Shown: positions 2,733-12,450 of the stretch, piece by piece
Position numbering within the stretch: position 1 is the stretch's first letter
How the letters are laid out: every line of letters begins with the position of its first letter
NCBI RefSeq assembly: GCF_030848575.1
Contig: NZ_JAVDDX010000002.1
Coordinates: 1,364,001-1,428,000 of the forward strand
Origin: Haloarcula sp. H-GB4
GTDB lineage: Archaea; Halobacteriota; Halobacteria; Halobacteriales; Haloarculaceae
Direction: 5' to 3'
DNA length: 64,000 bases
Notes under the pieces: generated by a model
The model's database searches: none
What the model was told of the DNA's origin: nothing
The model's input: only the letters and a program-made list of their open reading frames with translations
Position numbers and translations under genes: made by a program

Positions 2733-3344
2733 TTAGTCTTCGATTCGTGACTCCAGTTCCTGAATGACCTCATCGGTCGTGCCGCCATCGCCGCGAACCG
2801 CCTGCGTGTAGCGCCTGTATTCCTTGGGGGATACCTCCACAGTCTTCGTTTCGCCTTTGTGCGAAATCTCAAGTTTCACTGTGCCGTGTGGATTGTTCCG
2901 GCGCCGGAAGCTCGCCATCGCCGTGAAGACGAACCAGAACGCCACGCACGTCCCGATGAAGTACGCCATCGTCGTCTCAAAGGCCAGTGTCTGCTCGCCG
3001 ACCGTCCAGTTGTAGGGATACGCGACCTGAAACAGTCCGATTCCGACCAGACAGAGAATCGCGCCGACGGCGACACCGCTCTGCTCCCGGCGGCTTGAAG
3101 GGAGCACGGCGACGACGCTCAGAAACATCGCGGGGATGCCGAGGCCGCCCAGTGTCCCGCCGAGCTTTTCGGCGGCGTGGGGTTCAGTTGCGCCGACCAC
3201 TGCCGACAGCGGAGTTGTCACAAGAAGTATCGCCACAACCACTGCCAGCGCGCCGACACCCCCCAGGGTCGCACCGGCAACGACGCGGCGAGGGTTGCGG
3301 CCCTCCCAACGCCGGTTGCTGTACGCGTCCCTGAGGTCCTCCAT
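2733..3344 (-). CDS. Four-helix membrane protein with cytoplasmic C-terminal domain
   Basis: A 203-residue protein starting MEDLRDAYSNRRWEG, with four hydrophobic segments (roughly residues 22-45, 62-80, 88-105, 118-140). A soluble tail follows with KLEISHKGETKTVEVSPKEYRRY and a final acidic helix. ATG 3344 is preferred to an upstream in-frame codon because the extra residues lack conserved character. No family with a known function is recognised; the pattern is typical of haloarchaeal conserved membrane proteins. Confidence 0.75.
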   Translation of the reverse strand: MEDLRDAYSNRRWEGRNPRRVVAGATLGGVGALAVVVAILLVTTPLSAVVGATEPHAAEKLGGTLGGLGIPAMFLSVVAVLPSSRREQSGVAVGAILCLVGIGLFQVAYPYNWTVGEQTLAFETTMAYFIGTCVAFWFVFTAMASFRRRNNPHGTVKLEISHKGETKTVEVSPKEYRRYTQAVRGDGGTTDEVIQELESRIED

Positions 3345-3380
3345 ACCGGCCCGTTGGTACCCGACCCACAAAACGCTACG

Positions 3381-5186: not shown

Positions 5187-6272
5187 TCAGGCCTCTGGTT
5201 CGAACACGTCGGGGTTTGCTGGCCCTTCGCGATTGATGATGGCCATCGTGCCCTTACGGGCGACCCGAGAGAGTGCGTGGTCGACCAGTTTGATCGGGCC
5301 GGGCACTTCGGCGTGGAGCGTCGTGATGGCACAAGACCCGGGCTTGACCGGTGTGGTCTGGACGTACTTGTTCGGCGGCCCGGCGATAGCGCCCTGCTGC
5401 CAGACCTCGTCCCAGACGGACCCGATGGGGTGGAAACTGGAGTCGAGGTTCGGCCCGCCGGTCACGAAGTACACGCGAGCGGTGTCGCCGACCGACATAC
5501 TCGGCGAGCCGTATCGGTCCGGCGTGATGGCGTACTTCTCGCCGTTCATCAGGACGTACGTCGGCTCTTCGGCTGCCATCGCCTCCATGTCGAAGTCGTG
5601 GTGCCCTTTCTCGCCGGTGTCACCGGTAGTGTACAGCTCGTGCTGGCCGAAGTAGAACTCGTGGTCCACTTCGGGGAGCCCCTCCTTCGGCTCAACGAGT
5701 ATCATCCCGAACATCCCCGAGGAGATGTGCATATCGAGATTCGGGACGGCGCAGTGGTAGATGAACGCGCCGGGGTAGGTGGCCTTGAACCGGAACGTCT
5801 TGGTCTGGCCCGGCGTGACCATCGACGCCTCAGCACCGCCCCCTGGGCCGCGGACGGCGTGGAGGTCGATGTTGTGGGGCATCGAGTTCCCCTCCTCGTT
5901 CGTGATGGTGAGTTCGACGGTGTCGCCCCGACGGACTCGAATCATCGGACCTGGGATCTGGTCACCGAACGTCATGTACGTGTAGGTGACGCCCGGCTCG
6001 ACCTCTGCGACCTGTTCTTTGGTGGTCATCTCGACCGACACGGTCTTTGGCTCCGACCGGTCGATAGGGTCTGGGATTGCGGTCGGGTCAGCGGCAATAC
6101 GGTCGACGTCGGTCTGTTGTGCGGCGTTCATAGCTGGCTCCTGAGGGGTCGTCTCCGCTTCGGTCGCTTGCTCTTTTGCGCCTGGTGCGCTGGCACAGCC
6201 CGCAAGTGCGGCCGTGCCGACGCCCAAGGCTTCTAACACCCGCCTCCGCGTCGTCGTCGGAATGGTTGACAT
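5187..6272 (-). CDS. nirK: Copper-containing nitrite reductase NirK
   Basis: A 361-residue enzyme reducing nitrite to nitric oxide in denitrification. It has a Tat signal with lipobox-like end (TRRRVLEALGVGTAALAGC), so it acts outside the membrane, possibly lipid-anchored. Cu ligands are recognisable: MPHNIDLH, YHCAVPNLDMH with SSGM (type 1 Cys/His/Met and type 2 His), and SSFHPIG (type 2 His from the neighbouring subunit). Two cupredoxin domains are present. No other denitrification gene is nearby. The TATA box and inverted repeats upstream suggest control by oxygen or nitrogen oxides. Confidence 0.95.
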   Translation of the reverse strand: MSTIPTTTRRRVLEALGVGTAALAGCASAPGAKEQATEAETTPQEPAMNAAQQTDVDRIAADPTAIPDPIDRSEPKTVSVEMTTKEQVAEVEPGVTYTYMTFGDQIPGPMIRVRRGDTVELTITNEEGNSMPHNIDLHAVRGPGGGAEASMVTPGQTKTFRFKATYPGAFIYHCAVPNLDMHISSGMFGMILVEPKEGLPEVDHEFYFGQHELYTTGDTGEKGHHDFDMEAMAAEEPTYVLMNGEKYAITPDRYGSPSMSVGDTARVYFVTGGPNLDSSFHPIGSVWDEVWQQGAIAGPPNKYVQTTPVKPGSCAITTLHAEVPGPIKLVDHALSRVARKGTMAIINREGPANPDVFEPEA

Positions 6273-6310
6273 TGGGAGGTCACTTCCTACAGATGGGACT
6301 CAGCGCGCAA

Positions 6311-6322
6311 CCTGTATATATG
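6311..6322 (-). promoter_or_regulatory. TATA element of nirK
   Basis: On the minus strand CCCATATATACAGG lies about 40-48 nt before the nirK ATG at 6272, implying a transcript with a leader of roughly 15-20 nt. Confidence 0.55.
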
Positions 6323-6350
6323 GGGACGGCGAATCTCAGCCGCTGAGACG

Positions 6351-6386
6351 CGTTCTTGTGCGGTAAGAACGACACTGAACGTGTTC
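6351..6386. promoter_or_regulatory. Inverted repeats upstream of the nirK TATA box
   Basis: CGTTCTT (6351-6357) and AAGAACG (6365-6371) are perfect 7-bp arms with a 7-nt spacer. GAAC (6377-6380) and GTTC (6383-6386) form a second pair. They begin about 30 nt upstream of the TATA box, a good place for an activator of denitrification genes. Which regulator binds is not shown by the sequence. Confidence 0.45.
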
Positions 6387-6581
6387 GGGTTGGTGGTAAT
6401 ATACCTATGAAAACTGAACGCTATCCCGGTTTCCTCGGAACAACCGACTGGTAACTGTCGCGCAGCAGTTCGACCGGAAACTCTGAGTCGGCATCCATTT
6501 GAGCGCTGACCGCCTCCGTGGTACTATGACTACGCGTTCGCCATCTTTCGGCGGTCGAGACGCACGTGGTGTGTGGTAATC

Positions 6582-7373
6582 ATGTCGGGCAAAGACGACT
6601 ACTACAACAGGGCGAAGCAGGAGGGGTATCGTGCGCGGTCAGCCTACAAGCTCCAGCAGCTAGACGACACAGCCGGCCTCCTCGGTGAGGGACGGACCGT
6701 CGTAGACCTCGGTGCGGCACCCGGCGGCTGGATGCAGGTCGCGGCCGAGCGCATCGGTGACCGCGGGACGCTCGTCGGTGTCGATCGCCAGACAATCGAT
6801 GACCTAGAAGATCCCGAGCCGACCGTCGAGTACGTCCGCGGCGACATGACCGAAGATAGCACGAAAGACGAGATCCGAGAAATCGTCGGTGAAAGCAACG
6901 GCAGCGCTGGTCCGGTCGACGTTGTCATCTCTGACATGGCCCCGAACATGACCGGCCAGTATGACCTCGACCACGCCCGGTCGGTCCACTTGGTCCGGCA
7001 GGCCTTCGAGGTCGCGACGGACCTGCTCGACGCTGGCGGGGACTTCTGTGCGAAGGTGTTCGACGGACAGGACCTCGACGACCTCATCGCCGATATCGAA
7101 CCGGAGTTCGAGTACGTCCGCGAGGTCCGTCCCGACGCCTCGCGGGACTCCTCCTCGGAGCTGTATCTGGTGGCGAAACACCGCCTGACTGGGCCGGTCC
7201 GCGAGGGCGATGTTGTCGAAGTCACTATCGAGGATATCGGCGAGGAGGGCGACGGTATCGCAAAGATCGAGAACTTCACCGTGTTCGTCAGCGGCGTCGA
7301 AGACGGCCAAACAGTCGAGGTCCGAATCGATGACGTGAAACCGCGGTACGCGTTCGCTGAGCCGGTCGAGTAA
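6582..7373 (+). CDS. rlmE: 23S rRNA 2'-O-methyltransferase (RlmE/FtsJ) with TRAM domain
   Basis: A 263-residue SAM-dependent methyltransferase of the FtsJ/RrmJ family, which methylates the ribose of a U in the 23S A-loop. It shows the SAM motif VVDLGAAPGGW and the K-D-K-E tetrad region: SAYKL, ISDMAPN, CAKVFDG, SSELYLVA. Residues from about 205 form a TRAM RNA-binding domain (VREGDVVEVTIEDIGEEGDG), a common archaeal C-terminal fusion. ATG 6582 is preferred to GTG 6573. Confidence 0.92.
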   Translation: MSGKDDYYNRAKQEGYRARSAYKLQQLDDTAGLLGEGRTVVDLGAAPGGWMQVAAERIGDRGTLVGVDRQTIDDLEDPEPTVEYVRGDMTEDSTKDEIREIVGESNGSAGPVDVVISDMAPNMTGQYDLDHARSVHLVRQAFEVATDLLDAGGDFCAKVFDGQDLDDLIADIEPEFEYVREVRPDASRDSSSELYLVAKHRLTGPVREGDVVEVTIEDIGEEGDGIAKIENFTVFVSGVEDGQTVEVRIDDVKPRYAFAEPVE

Positions 7374-7391
7374 GCCGCTTCCAGTCGTTTT

Positions 7392-8090
7392 TCAATCGGC
7401 GCTTGCTGGAGTCGAGACGACGTTGTTTCGCCGGGCAAAGCCGACGACGGCGTAGACGAACGGCGTGTCGAGAACGGCGATAGCGAGTTTTAGGAGGTAC
7501 TGGCCGACGATGAGCGCCAGCGCCTCGGCCGGCGGGACCCCCTGAAACAGGACGAAGCCGACGCCGATGAAGATGACCGTGTCGATGAGCTGGCTGGTGG
7601 CTGTCGAGCCGATGTTCCGGAGCCAGAGCTTTTTGCCGTCCGTTCGGTCCCTGAGCCAGTGGAAGACAAACACGTCCCAGTTTTGACTTATCACGTAGGC
7701 CGACAGGCTGGCAACGACGATGGCCGTGCTCGCCCCGAGCACATTCTGGAAGGCCGCGAGATCGACCGGCTGGGCCGCCTGTGGGAGTCCGGGGGCGAGA
7801 ATCGTGCTCCAGACCAGCGCCAGCAGGACGAAGTTCATCGCGAAGCCGACGTTGACGACGACGGTCGCGGCCCGGCGGCCGTACAGTTCGGCGTAGCAGT
7901 CGGAGGCAAAGAACGTCAGCGCGTACGCTAGCGCTGCCCCGGGCAGGACAAGTGTCGACCCGGCAAGCGGGAGTGAGAACGGCAGCGAGAACGCAAGCAG
8001 CTTCGAGGCGGTCACCTGTGAGGTAACCAGCGCTGTCACGAACAGCGCGACGAGGCCGACGCGCACCGCCTCCGACCGCTCACTGGTCAT
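7392..8090 (-). CDS. Queuosine/archaeosine precursor transporter, VUT (YhhQ) family
   Basis: A 232-residue integral membrane protein with about six helices. The family signatures include FASDCYAELYG, DVFVFHWLRDRTDGKKLW and LRNIGSTATSQLIDT. Bacterial YhhQ imports preQ0/preQ1; in haloarchaea the likely substrate is a precursor for archaeosine in tRNA (inference from the family). The start at 8090 overlaps the end of the RHH gene by 11 nt, so the two are translationally coupled. In-frame ATG 8114 is possible but lies inside that gene. Confidence 0.88.
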   Translation of the reverse strand: MTSERSEAVRVGLVALFVTALVTSQVTASKLLAFSLPFSLPLAGSTLVLPGAALAYALTFFASDCYAELYGRRAATVVVNVGFAMNFVLLALVWSTILAPGLPQAAQPVDLAAFQNVLGASTAIVVASLSAYVISQNWDVFVFHWLRDRTDGKKLWLRNIGSTATSQLIDTVIFIGVGFVLFQGVPPAEALALIVGQYLLKLAIAVLDTPFVYAVVGFARRNNVVSTPASAD

Positions 8091-8256
8091 CGTCGAGTCG
8101 TCCTTGGCGCTCATCGATGTCGTCAAGCACGTCGAGCGTTTTTCGGACTGAGGCGCGGATAGCCTCGCTTCGATTGACGAACTTCCCGTCTTCGCCGACG
8201 TGCTTGTCGATGTCATTCAGCAACTCCGCCGGAACTTCGACGCTTATCTTGGGCAT
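8080..8256 (-). CDS. Ribbon-helix-helix (CopG/NikR-type) DNA-binding protein
   Basis: A 58-residue gene. The protein starts MPKISVEVPAELLNDIDKHV (the ribbon and first helix) and continues KFVNRSEAIRASVRKTL (turn and second helix), the classic RHH layout. The tail is acidic. It overlaps the transporter start by 11 nt. The ATG lies inside a TTGGGCATAT box that is repeated 22 nt upstream, suggesting autoregulation of the two-gene operon. Confidence 0.88.
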   Translation of the reverse strand: MPKISVEVPAELLNDIDKHVGEDGKFVNRSEAIRASVRKTLDVLDDIDERQGRLDDDQ

Positions 8257-8280
8257 ATCTGGAGAATATATTGGGCATAT
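8249..8280 (-). promoter_or_regulatory. Repeated operator-like box at the RHH-transporter operon start
   Basis: The 10-bp sequence TTGGGCATAT occurs at 8249-8258 and again at 8271-8280, exactly 22 nt apart (two helical turns). The nearer copy covers the start codon of the RHH gene. The A/T-rich stretch between them (GAATATA, 8264-8270) may be part of the promoter. This is the layout expected for a dimer-of-dimers RHH repressor site. Confidence 0.5.
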
Positions 8281-8422
8281 GCTTAGCCACTGTGGTTCGT
8301 TGGCCAGGCGTGTCGACTCACAGGTAGTTTCTGGGCATCACGAGAGCTACTGCACTCGCAACAGGACGGATGGAGAAACAGCTCGGATTTCCGGTTAGGG
8401 GGAGGGAGAGCCTCGCGGGGCT

Positions 8423-8436
8423 GTTATCGAGATAAC
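8423..8436. repeat. Short inverted repeat in intergenic DNA
   Basis: GTTATC-GA-GATAAC, a near-perfect palindrome in the 274-nt region between the RHH gene and the TatCt gene end. It may be a terminator or protein site; nothing else was recognised in this region. Confidence 0.3.
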
Positions 8437-8530
8437 GGGCCGTTACGAGTATCCCTGAGCGTTCCACGACTGCGACGGCGGTGCGATCATCGTCGAATAA
8501 CGGTTCGCGACTCGTCGCCGAGCACAGCTA

Positions 8531-10726
8531 TCAGTCAGCTGGTTCGCTTCGGCGGTTCGTCGTCCGCCGGCCGCCCAGCGTGTACACCCAGAGGATACCG
8601 AGCCCGAGCATATACGCCAGCGCCGTGGGAATGCCGACGATGAACATCGTGAAAATGCCACTTGGCGAGAGAATCGCCGAGAGGGCGACGATGGCGATGA
8701 CGACCTCCCGCCAGCGCTCGTACATCAGGCGGAACGGGATGATGCCGCCCTTATGGAAGAGGAACATCGTCACCGGAATCTCCGCCAGCAGGCCGATCCC
8801 AATGGTGAGGAAGAACACGAGCCAGCCGAAGTTGCTCACCCGGTAGGCGATGACCATGTTCGAGTTCAGCTGGTCGTAGGCGATCCAGGAGATGGTCATC
8901 GGGGCCACGTAGAGGAACCCGAGCAGGCTTCCGCCGATGAGTGCGGCGAACAGCGTTCCGCCCCAGACGCCGAGGATGTTACGGTTCCCAATGACCAGTC
9001 CCCGCTCGCGCATCGCCGGCCACGCGAAGTACAGCACCACGGGGATGATGGAGACGGCTCCGAGTATCGTCGAGAACTTGACGATGAACACGAGGTGCTC
9101 CACGGGGTGGAGCGTGACGATGCTCACGTCGGCGGCCATCTCCGGCGGGAGCCGGCTGACGAACGTCCGCTGTATCGACCCGATGCCGCCCTGATAGAGG
9201 AACAGGAACGCAGCGGCGAGCACCGCCCCGAAGATTCCCAGAATCACGAACGCCCGGGACGCCAGCGCACTGAGAATGAACTGGATGTCGTAGTAGTAGC
9301 CGCCGATCTCGTCTTCGGTTGTCTCGTCCTCGGTGAAGGCATCGACCATACCGGCGGTCGTCGAGGTGAACACACCTGTCTCCTCCTCGTCCGCTTCGGC
9401 GGCCCCGTCAGCACCGCCGCTCTCACCCTCCGACTCTGTGTCGTCCTCGTGAGCCATGTCCCAGCGGTCGAGGACGGCCTGAGCTTTCTCCTTGTTGTCG
9501 TCCGCAAGAGCGCGGTCGGCGTGGGCGAGCGCCTCGTCCTCGGTCATCTCCTCGAACACTTCGGGGGGCGCGACCTCGACGGCCGAGGCGTTGAGTTCGC
9601 CAATGTCGATGGCCGTCGGGTCACCGACCTGACCGGGACCGGCTTTCTCTGACAGTGCGGTCAGAACGTGGTAGTACAGGACGACGACAGCACCGATGAC
9701 ACCGAATACGGCGGCGATGAGCAGCGCTGTGCTTTCGACCGGGAGCCCGAACAGCGCCGGCGGCTGGATATCGCCGGTGAGCCGGTCGGACGGGAACACC
9801 TCGGCGAACTGCTGGATGTACTGGAACGCCGGCGTCGCTAGGACGTAGTACACCACGCCGCCGCCCAGCACTGCACCGCCGAGAATCGTGTTCCAGTGTC
9901 CGCGGGCGACGCTCCACGTGCTCACCAGATCACCGGAGCGCCTGACCAGCATCGCGAGCTTCGCCAGCGCGAGGCTGATCCCGTAGAGGCCACACAGCGG
10001 TGCGGCCCACATAATCTGGGTGAAGGGGTCCGGCGGCGAGAACAGCGCCCCGAAGGCGAAAATCCCCATCACCGCGTAGCGCCACTTGTCCCGGAACGTC
10101 TCATAGGGGACGATTTCAGTGTAGGAAAGCACCGTCATCACGAGCGGCAACTGGGCGGCGAGCCCGAAGGAGACGGCCAGCAGGAAGACGAACTGGAACC
10201 ACTTGACGATGGAGTACTGCGGCGTGAAGCCGGCCTTGAACGCGTCCCCGGCGAGGAAGTTGAACATCAGGGGGAAGAACAGTTCGTACGCGTAGGCGAC
10301 ACCGCCGAAAAACAGGCCCAGACTTATGCTGACGAACAGCGCGCCCTTCCAGGTCGGGATGTGTTCGGCCGGCCACCAGCCGCGCTGTCGGAGCCCATCG
10401 CGGCCGAAGTAGATCAGCAGCGGCAGCGACATGAGAATCCCGATGACGGCTCCGATTTTCACCTGCAGGAGGATGACGTCGAACGGTGTGACCGCGACGA
10501 TGCTCGTGGCCTCCTGGGTGGTGAGGTCCATCTGCGAGTACAGGAGATCAGCACGCAGCGTGTCCCAGACGCCGTACTGCAGTCCCATGATCGTGCCGAT
10601 CATCCCGATGACGAAGACGATGAACACCTTCTGGAGGTGCACCTGTGCCGAGCGGAGCATCGCACCGAGCGTCGCACGCCCGCTCTGGACCGTCTGGACG
10701 GTGTCCTCGTCGATAGCACTCGCCAT
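8531..10726 (-). CDS. tatC2: Twin-arginine translocase subunit TatCt (double TatC)
   Basis: A 731-residue protein in which two TatC domains are fused in one chain, the arrangement known as TatCt in haloarchaea. Each half has about six membrane helices. The first begins after MASAIDEDTVQTVQSG; an acidic linker (about residues 430-510, with GESGGADGAAEADEEE) leads to the second. It works with TatA to export folded proteins such as the Tat substrates NirK and the DUF4382 lipoprotein in this window. ATG 10726 fits the family; upstream in-frame codons give a basic, non-family extension. Confidence 0.92.
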   Translation of the reverse strand: MASAIDEDTVQTVQSGRATLGAMLRSAQVHLQKVFIVFVIGMIGTIMGLQYGVWDTLRADLLYSQMDLTTQEATSIVAVTPFDVILLQVKIGAVIGILMSLPLLIYFGRDGLRQRGWWPAEHIPTWKGALFVSISLGLFFGGVAYAYELFFPLMFNFLAGDAFKAGFTPQYSIVKWFQFVFLLAVSFGLAAQLPLVMTVLSYTEIVPYETFRDKWRYAVMGIFAFGALFSPPDPFTQIMWAAPLCGLYGISLALAKLAMLVRRSGDLVSTWSVARGHWNTILGGAVLGGGVVYYVLATPAFQYIQQFAEVFPSDRLTGDIQPPALFGLPVESTALLIAAVFGVIGAVVVLYYHVLTALSEKAGPGQVGDPTAIDIGELNASAVEVAPPEVFEEMTEDEALAHADRALADDNKEKAQAVLDRWDMAHEDDTESEGESGGADGAAEADEEETGVFTSTTAGMVDAFTEDETTEDEIGGYYYDIQFILSALASRAFVILGIFGAVLAAAFLFLYQGGIGSIQRTFVSRLPPEMAADVSIVTLHPVEHLVFIVKFSTILGAVSIIPVVLYFAWPAMRERGLVIGNRNILGVWGGTLFAALIGGSLLGFLYVAPMTISWIAYDQLNSNMVIAYRVSNFGWLVFFLTIGIGLLAEIPVTMFLFHKGGIIPFRLMYERWREVVIAIVALSAILSPSGIFTMFIVGIPTALAYMLGLGILWVYTLGGRRTTNRRSEPAD

Positions 10727-10830
10727 CTTCTCTGTGCCTAGCCCAGTGGGCGTTATCAATTTATTCATCCCGGTGACAGCCACTGCTCGAAAAGAAAGTT
10801 TACAACACCCACCGTCTAAGCCCGGGACAG

Positions 10831-12450
10831 ATGGAGGACGGTGATGCGGACGACGAGCAACGCAGGCCCGAAGAGCCGCCGCTACCGTCTGACGACGAGT
10901 CCGACGATTCGTCACCCCCTACTGACCCCGTTGCCGAGGCCGATGCCAACCGGGAGGCGGACGAGGTGACCAGCCCCGGTCCCGCACCGGCCGGCGGTGA
11001 CGAGGACACTGTTGGCTCGCATGCCGCGCCGACAGAAGCCGAATCCAGCGACGGGCTGTTCGACCGGGACGCGTCAGATATCTCCGCTGCTGTCCCGGCT
11101 GACGTTCCGACTGACTGGGGCAAGCCGACGCCGTCACCGGCCGGTGCCGGTGGTGCTGCGCCGACAACCGGCGGCGGGAATGCACCGAGCTACGACCCCG
11201 ACGACGATATCGTCGACGAGGGCGCACCCGACGACGAGGAGATGCCCTTGGCCGACCACGTCGAGGAGATGGCGATGCGGCTGTTCGTCGTCGTCGGCGT
11301 GATGGCCGTCGTCGCCGTTATCGCCTTGCCGTACTCCGATGAACTCATCAACTTCCTGTGGTACTCGTTCCTCGACGGCCCGGCCGAGGCCTGCGGACAG
11401 GTCGCGACGAACGTCGACGGCAGTGCTGTCGCGGGCGCTGACTGCCCGAACGTGTACAACCCGCTCGCGCTCATTCTGGCGCGTCTCAAGGTGTCTTCGC
11501 TAGTCGGCTTTATCGTCGCCTTGCCGGTGTTCGTCTACCAGACGTACCTGTTCATGCGACCGGGGCTGTACCCCCGCGAGCGCCGCTACTATCTGGCTGC
11601 GGTTCCGACAAGCCTCGTTCTCGCAGCTGTCGGCGTTGGCTTCGCGTATTTCGCCGTGCTGCGGGCGATGTTCGATTACTTCATTACTTACTCCGACCGC
11701 GCAGCCGACCTGGCCTTTGGCCTGAGCGAGACGTTCAACCTCATCATCCTGATGCTGGGGCTGTTCGCGCTCATCTTCCAGATCCCGCTGTTCGTGATGC
11801 TCGCAGTGATGATGGGCGTGACGACCCGCCAGTGGCTGCAGGACCGGCGGCTGTACTTCTGGGGTGGCTTCGCCGCTGTGGCATTCCTGTTCAGCCCGGA
11901 CCCGACTGGGATGGCCCCGCTCATGGTCGCCGTGACGATGATCGGGCTGTTCGAGGGGACCCTGCTGCTCCTTCGTTGGACCGGCAGTACGTCGCCGGTC
12001 CCGACAGCGGACGACCTCGCCGCGCGCCGCCCGGTTGCGTGGTTGACCGCCGGTATTGCCGGCTACGTCCTCAGCCCCGCACCGGTCCCGACGGGCTACT
12101 ATGAGCAACTGCCAGCCACAGTTACTGAGACGCTCGCAGCCGTCGGCCTCGGGAACGCCACGCCAATGCTTGTCGGCGGTGGGATGATCGTCCTGTTCGA
12201 GGCGCTGGCCTACGTGAACAAGAACTACTACGGCTCGGTCAAACTCTGGCGCGGGTTCCGGGCCGCCCGCCTGCCGGTGTGGGCCGTCGCCATCGTCGTC
12301 GGCTACCTCGGCAGCCCCGACCCGACGCTGTTCCGCCTCATCAACCAGTTCAGCCTCCCGAGAAACGCCGCAATCGCCGTCGCCGCCGGCCTCGTCATCC
12401 TCTATGAGGGGACCATCGCCGTCGCGCGCTGGCGAAACCGGGGTGAATAA
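10831..12450 (+). CDS. tatC1: Twin-arginine translocase subunit TatCo
   Basis: A 539-residue single-TatC protein. About 135 acidic, Pro/Gly-rich residues precede the canonical start of the domain (MPLADHVEEMAMRLFVVVG). TatC signatures include VFVYQTYLFMRPGLYPRERR and FSPDPTGMAP. Extra hydrophobic segments follow after about residue 400, making it longer than bacterial TatC (about 250 residues). It is encoded divergently from TatCt over a 104-nt gap that must hold both promoters. It acts as the signal-peptide receptor in the cytoplasmic membrane. Confidence 0.92.
   Translation: MEDGDADDEQRRPEEPPLPSDDESDDSSPPTDPVAEADANREADEVTSPGPAPAGGDEDTVGSHAAPTEAESSDGLFDRDASDISAAVPADVPTDWGKPTPSPAGAGGAAPTTGGGNAPSYDPDDDIVDEGAPDDEEMPLADHVEEMAMRLFVVVGVMAVVAVIALPYSDELINFLWYSFLDGPAEACGQVATNVDGSAVAGADCPNVYNPLALILARLKVSSLVGFIVALPVFVYQTYLFMRPGLYPRERRYYLAAVPTSLVLAAVGVGFAYFAVLRAMFDYFITYSDRAADLAFGLSETFNLIILMLGLFALIFQIPLFVMLAVMMGVTTRQWLQDRRLYFWGGFAAVAFLFSPDPTGMAPLMVAVTMIGLFEGTLLLLRWTGSTSPVPTADDLAARRPVAWLTAGIAGYVLSPAPVPTGYYEQLPATVTETLAAVGLGNATPMLVGGGMIVLFEALAYVNKNYYGSVKLWRGFRAARLPVWAVAIVVGYLGSPDPTLFRLINQFSLPRNAAIAVAAGLVILYEGTIAVARWRNRGE

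Follow-up and report, generated by a model that had tools for sequence, protein, structure and literature searches.

A conserved palindromic operator joins a small ribbon–helix–helix gene, its transporter partner and the preQ0 synthesis genes of haloarchaea

A ribbon–helix–helix (RHH) protein of only 58 residues is likely to be a specific regulator, most probably a repressor, of both preQ0 import and preQ0 synthesis in haloarchaea. Our comparisons of haloarchaeal genomes point to (i) a conserved operator; (ii) a regular phasing of its half-sites; (iii) its occurrence at two target sets, i.e. the RHH-transporter operon and the queD-queE-queC genes; (iv) its absence at tgtA and folE2/mptA; and (v) two cases in which the RHH gene lies beside queD. 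We infer the RHH protein as the binder, repression as its mode of action and preQ0 as the signal, the last from the identity of the targets. As judged from sequence, the regulatory link is conserved, is larger than the one proposed by an earlier sequence-only reading of the same DNA and involves a different operator sequence.

The stretch that was analysed (hereafter the window) is 64 kb long and comes from the genome of a haloarchaeon (4.19 Mb, 15 contigs; hereafter the source genome). Two of its genes are central here:

7392–8090, minus strand: VUT/YhhQ-type queuosine (preQ0) precursor transporter gene, 232 aa, matching PF02592 and TIGR00697
8080–8256, minus strand: RHH gene, 58 aa, supported as an open reading frame (ORF) and by a PF01402 match; proposed regulator of preQ0 supply

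The RHH protein scores 21.4 bits against PF01402 (RHH_1; Pfam cut-off 20.5) and thus belongs to that family. The transporter matches PF02592 with an E-value of 4.9e-50, and its 150 bits against TIGR00697 ('queuosine precursor transporter'; cut-off 50.95) place it in that equivalog group; transport of preQ0/preQ1 by VUT is predicted from this family name and from E. coli YhhQ (PMC5372724). With the VUT start taken at 8090, the two genes share 11 nt; many orthologous loci have this start and this overlap. A longer open frame reaches up to 8216. The overlapping gene pair described by the sequence-only reading is thus upheld by the ORFs and all three family models. The pair is flanked by a TatC-type gene and an FtsJ-TRAM methyltransferase gene. 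On the TatC side, a 794-aa ORF with two TatC-matching stretches (8531–10915, minus strand) lies opposite a 539-aa ORF (10831–12450, plus strand) that looks TatC-like by eye, which we take to be the haloarchaeal TatCt/TatC arrangement.

Among named genomes, the closest RHH matches are in Haloarcula species. RHH orthologues (identity 65–100%) are present in 134 of 146 family genomes and in all 96 family genomes with at least 90% completeness and at most 5% contamination; an alignment of 26 RHH sequences has 29 invariant columns. In 99 of 110 loci RHH is followed by VUT in the same orientation; the 110 loci are not independent because two locus sets share species. The RHH-transporter operon is conserved across haloarchaea.

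From these 110 loci we kept 69 non-redundant RHH promoters, with 100 nt or more of upstream sequence and a mutual similarity of no more than 70%. The dyad TATTC-N6-GAATA occurs in seven of them, against a maximum of two in 30 shuffles. Expectation maximization (EM) was started from a single half-site word and left free of any symmetry constraint; it recovered the inverted second half by itself (aATATTCttnngaGAATACC, in ∼66% of the 69 promoters; symmetric version gATATTCtcnngaGAATATc). The conserved element near the RHH start is an 11-bp phased palindromic operator, roughly GATATTC-N6-GAATATC. In an approximate leave-one-out scan (one re-estimation step, loci of 3–6 kb), 55 of 69 loci have their overall best match inside the RHH promoter, and 59 have one of their top three there. 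Half-sites are repeated at about one helical turn: among 33 promoters with a second match, the spacing is 11 bp in 29, 22 bp in three and 14 bp in one, although the 11-bp value follows partly from the geometry of the palindrome itself and is not fully independent. In the window the operator comprises:

8251–8270, minus strand, TATATTCTCCAGATATGCCC: operator core, a degenerate palindrome that takes in the RHH start codon; its matrix score of 12.5 ranks second in the window
8262–8269, minus strand, ATATTCTC: central half-site, conserved in other genomes
8262–8281: a further register of the operator, one 11-bp step upstream (−25); score 9.4

The highest operator-like score of the window (17.1, at 2816–2835) lies inside an ORF (2733–3371, minus strand) and was set aside as coding or chance. 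Most close relatives share the register at −14, and three loci (L014, L099 and L102) have it at −36. Across genomes the operator sits at −14, −25 or −36 relative to the start, with TATA-like stretches just upstream or overlapping; its position relative to the start argues for repression. In some lineages the operator is located 58–110 nt upstream, ahead of a short upstream reading frame. A short ATG frame of 16–31 codons directly follows the operator in 14 of 18 loci inspected (L022, L024, L087, L049, L051, L027, L029, L045, L033, L039, L075, L079, L081 and L083) and either stops at most 7 nt before the RHH start or overlaps it. It is similar in sequence among L022, L024 and L087, and may represent an upstream ORF of the leaderless kind, with translational coupling.

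A pattern scan of the source genome allowing two mismatches gave 298 forward and 77 reversed-control hits among the matches listed, which is uninformative, and a sequence-only covariance model of the operator found none at E ≤ 10 among the 150 of 354 candidates scored. An Rfam search of positions 6000–11000 of the window gave no match up to E 1, and hence no match to a preQ1 riboswitch model.

One and the same operator marks the RHH-transporter operon and the genes for preQ0 synthesis. We fetched QueC loci with no reference to the motif and then scanned them with the matrix derived from RHH promoters; many have a match ∼1.25 kb from queC, with scores up to 20.6. In the source genome this match (score 10.1) coincides with the start codon of queD, the first gene of queD-queE-queC; QueC is above its Pfam cut-off there, and QueD and QueE are below their NCBIfam cut-offs. 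Both source-genome sites are weak (12.5 at RHH and 10.1 at queD). Since ∼131 positions with a score of at least 10 are expected per 4.2-Mb genome, the single queD site of the source genome proves nothing, and it is conservation that carries the argument.

Conservation was assessed in a panel of 52 genomes, one per genus, which were picked after the exact-operator results described below and thus not blindly. queD occurs at 38 places in 35 of these genomes, and 37 promoters were read (a partial match in G315 was left out). With the matrix from RHH promoters only, 36 of 37 queD promoters score at least 8, 34 at least 10 and 30 at least 12, compared with 2.9%, 2.1% and 1.2% of 3219 control windows (160 nt long, against 200 nt for the queD windows). 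EM on the 37 queD promoters alone, with 60 common 6-mers as seeds, converged in its eight best runs on the same half-sites in the same 11-bp register (GATAATACC-cn-GGTATG; GAGAATACC).

The exact pattern RRTATTCN6GAATAYY is present in 82 of 392 genomes of the order, at no fewer than 75 distinct sites. Of the 70 that we examined, 28 are at queD, 15 at RHH and 27 elsewhere, so that 43 have a queD or RHH start within 100 bp; with starts set by alignment, site centres are 9–67 bp before queD and 15–99 bp before RHH. A recurrent target gene was not seen among the 27 remaining sites, except for one intergenic place in L169 and L170. These two loci come from related genomes (G071 and G073), share the same intergenic exact match and fall outside the proposed regulon. 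The reversed pattern occurred zero times among the matches listed; this control is not composition-matched (CTTA-type words may be rarer), so we rely on the location of the sites rather than on the zero.

For negative controls we used 32 of the 35 panel genomes that have queD, with 30 loci each for tgtA and folE2/mptA. Only one of 30 tgtA promoters scores at least 8 and none at least 10, and none of 30 folE2/mptA promoters scores at least 8; in three folE2/mptA loci a match scoring more than 12 lies elsewhere than at the gene start (L359, 12.3; L365, 14.9; L376, 15.6). As far as tested, the marked set is the preQ0-making and transporter operons, and neither the enzyme that inserts preQ0 into tRNA nor the shared first step. 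The earlier proposal that the module controls uptake thus gains its tie to preQ0 but proves too narrow, because the operator is nearly universal at queD, which extends the mark to synthesis.

In L175 and in genome G176 (L380), RHH and queD lie next to each other in divergent orientation. L380 (G176:C1:1292000-1310000) and L381 (G003:C1:222000-238000) are islands, each with genes of the queD and queC types and a pair of TGT-type genes; in L380, the one that was searched, there are also genes for DUF6884 and HATPase proteins and a weak DpdH-like match, and similar ORFs occur in L381. The queD operator scores 17.0 in L380 and 16.0 in L381, and the only RHH match of G176 is the one inside its island.

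Three observations make the RHH protein the candidate binder: the operator is on its own operon, RHH and queD are divergent neighbours in the two cases above, and 11-bp phasing suits RHH dimers. In operators of the Arc/CopG type, RHH dimers sit side by side and give phased half-sites. We take K2, S4 and E6 (numbered as in the RHH alignment) to be the DNA-facing strand residues, a role known from other RHH proteins, and all three are invariant or at least 90% conserved in the RHH alignment. RHH/CopG proteins have a β-α-α fold and pair into an intertwined dimer that binds DNA. A model of the monomer alone has helices at residues 9–18 and 28–49 (mean pLDDT 74.5, pTM 0.39); a Foldseek search with it gave no match at E ≤ 0.001.

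The distribution of RHH genes bears on who binds. RHH is present in 50 of 52 panel genomes, so its co-occurrence with the operator barely discriminates and another factor could bind. VUT is not downstream of RHH in 16 of the 46 panel genomes scored (RHH places in G269, G299, G323 and G382 were left out). RHH promoters score at least 8 in 26 of 30 VUT-linked genomes but in none of 16 unlinked ones (Fisher p = 5e-9, kinship ignored; G176 counts as having no site because its shared operator lies just outside the scanned stretch). The element is therefore tied to the transporter or the pathway more closely than to the regulator, and the word 'autoregulated' in the sequence-only reading calls for caution, since autoregulation is not general.

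Exceptions run in several directions. The operator is missing at the threshold of 8 in four of 30 panel RHH-VUT loci, and among the 110 loci no site above 7 was found in VUT-linked L032, L036, L038, L042, L063, L074 and L088. Conversely, L024/L113 (one genome) and L087 have the operator and no VUT downstream. A VUT match is absent from the genomes of L025 (Halomicrobium katesii), L041 (Halovenus carboxidivorans), L056 (Halorientalis marina), L024 (a MAG) and G061, and VUT lies elsewhere in the genomes of L054, L072 and L087. Solo transporters, i.e. those not beside RHH, score at least 8 in four of 16 cases. The best solo score (18.4) belongs to L285, in a genome (G186) with no queD match. The VUT start regions of L119 and L120 have no site, and L118 has only one of 11.6, ∼150 bp away.

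One alternative is that the operator is real and marks a preQ0 regulon, but that another transcription factor binds it and the RHH protein merely shares the VUT operon in some other role. This would suit the unlinked RHH genes, 14 of 16 of which stay near tatC- and/or rlmE-type genes in the panel with neither VUT downstream nor an operator, and the retention of RHH in 15 of 17 panel genomes with no queD match. We nevertheless regard it as unlikely, because RHH stands divergently beside queD in two lineages and the 11-bp phasing fits RHH dimers. Also, the two panel genomes with no RHH match (G156 and G207) lack a queD match as well, although RHH absence in two of 17 genomes without queD against none of 35 with it is a weak contrast.

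Close to the view of the sequence-only reading is an operator for simple RHH autoregulation, in which the transporter is only carried along and synthesis has no part. It would accord with the RHH-VUT operon in 99 of 110 loci and with the presence of the site in 26 of the 30 panel genomes where VUT follows RHH. However, the operator is steadier at queD (36 of 37) than at RHH (26 of 46 panel promoters overall) and is lacking at all 16 RHH promoters where VUT is not downstream; together with the exact sites, scores and EM result at queD, this makes it very improbable.

The element singled out by the sequence-only reading was a duplicated 10-mer, TTGGGCATAT, with these two copies:

8249–8258: near box, a diverged right half-site over the start codon, also coding M-P-K; exact in 40 of 110 loci
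8271–8280: far box, a third half-site in 11-bp phase; exact in one of 110 loci (source genome)

These are the only exact copies in the window; they lie 22 nt apart, the near one over the RHH start codon (8254–8256), just as described. The shuffle expectation for the pair is 0.03 and two copies were reached in none of 100 shuffles. At up to two mismatches there are 16 occurrences against 13.6 expected, so only the exact pair is unusual. A weaker third copy between the boxes gives three 14-nt units in 11-nt steps (8245, 8256 and 8267). Comparison of the 110 loci does not sustain the exact box as a conserved operator: the near copy recurs because ATG-CCC-AAG coding spells the box sequence, the exact far copy is confined among them to the source genome, and we rejected the exact 10-mer on this ground. 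The exact box thus falls to the refuting condition that the sequence-only reading itself had set, lack of conservation in orthologues. An operator-like element does stand at the RHH start, as had been proposed, but its conserved sequence is another, palindromic one, and the two boxes are the outer, diverged half-sites that flank it. That the pair is a local chance duplication with no function would explain its occurrence in a single locus, but we hold this to be highly improbable, because the pair is in 11-bp phase with the conserved central half-site and the far half-site recurs at one mismatch in three other loci and at two in seven (11 of 110 within two mismatches when the source genome is included; some are the same species twice). 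Least credible of all is that the motif is a generic feature of haloarchaeal promoters or starts (a TATA box, a proximal element or the context of the ATG). The start codon is indeed covered by many of the sites, and TATA-like stretches rich in A and T lie just upstream or overlap them, but tgtA and folE2/mptA promoters of the same panel are at background and only one of 447,889 positions outside RHH promoters reaches 14 (loci L009–L088).

The proposed regulator of preQ0 supply can be compared with several known systems. MetJ, Arc and CopG are RHH repressors whose dimers bind adjacent half-sites cooperatively, and MetJ represses the synthesis and uptake genes of one metabolite. Here the metabolite is another one and the protein has 58 residues with no evident ligand-binding domain added; homology is considered at the level of the RHH family only. 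NikR has a C-terminal nickel-binding domain. The best sequence match with a solved structure is the RHH part of a NikR-type protein (2bj1; E 0.0041, 36 of 138 residues), but 58 residues leave no room for such a domain, and the RHH protein is below all NikR-type cut-offs (at best 22.3 bits against 111; otherwise 21.5/105, 20.8/83, 17.2/175.45 and 17/119).

CdrS, according to PMC8406309 and PMC7439475, is a haloarchaeal RHH regulator encoded with ftsZ2, is treated there alongside CdrL and has a ChIP-derived motif described as notably symmetric. Like the protein studied here, it is a short haloarchaeal RHH regulator encoded just upstream of a partner gene. The partner is ftsZ2 rather than VUT, the CdrS sites named there include ftsZ1, dacZ, proteasome and metabolic genes, and our protein reaches only 34.3 bits against the CdrS equivalog NF058555 (cut-off 100). 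CdrS is set apart by this score, by its partner and by its listed sites; its motif is given as a figure in PMC8406309 and stands outside the comparison.

On the transporter side, VUT and E. coli YhhQ have the Pfam family PF02592 in common, but VUT is far below the PRK11212 (YhhQ) cut-off (40.6 bits against 252). According to PMC5372724, YhhQ takes part in the transport of preQ0, yhhQ is described as belonging to the PurR regulon, which is a further difference, and preQ1 riboswitches control yhhQ in several bacteria and sometimes the transporter genes qrtT/queT. The haloarchaeal case resembles these riboswitches in having transporter genes of the yhhQ type as proposed targets and differs in its means, which are RNA there and, here, a candidate protein with a DNA operator.

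If the RHH protein is the repressor, its dimers would bind side by side on the 11-bp phased operator near the start of transcription and translation (promoters look leaderless in many genomes). The bound protein would block transcription of its own operon, including the preQ0 transporter gene, and that of queD-queE-queC, probably when preQ0 or a product of preQ0 is plentiful. A bolder version, which we put forward only tentatively and consider rather doubtful, makes the RHH dimer itself the preQ0 sensor: preQ0, bound as a corepressor to the dimer or at the dimer–dimer interface, would shut down queDEC and VUT together, as a counterpart of the riboswitches, and the module would have been carried with que genes into islands of the DNA-modification type (e.g. 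in G176).

A dual supply of preQ0 is in keeping with the literature. Homologues of yhhQ occur in archaea, where a preQ0 salvage pathway is called likely (PMC5372724); in H. volcanii, deletions of queE and queC leave cells with no archaeosine in defined medium, and salvage of preQ0 from rich medium is offered as a possibility (PMC3017900). Among the papers listed in the literature searched, at the level of titles and the beginnings of abstracts and mostly outside subscription journals, a regulator of archaeal preQ0 or queuosine supply was not found. If the proposal is true, the regulator, operator and core regulon of haloarchaeal preQ0 supply would be named in one step. Bacteria would then monitor one metabolite family through RNA, and archaea through a very small protein, which would raise the question of how a protein of 58 residues senses preQ0.
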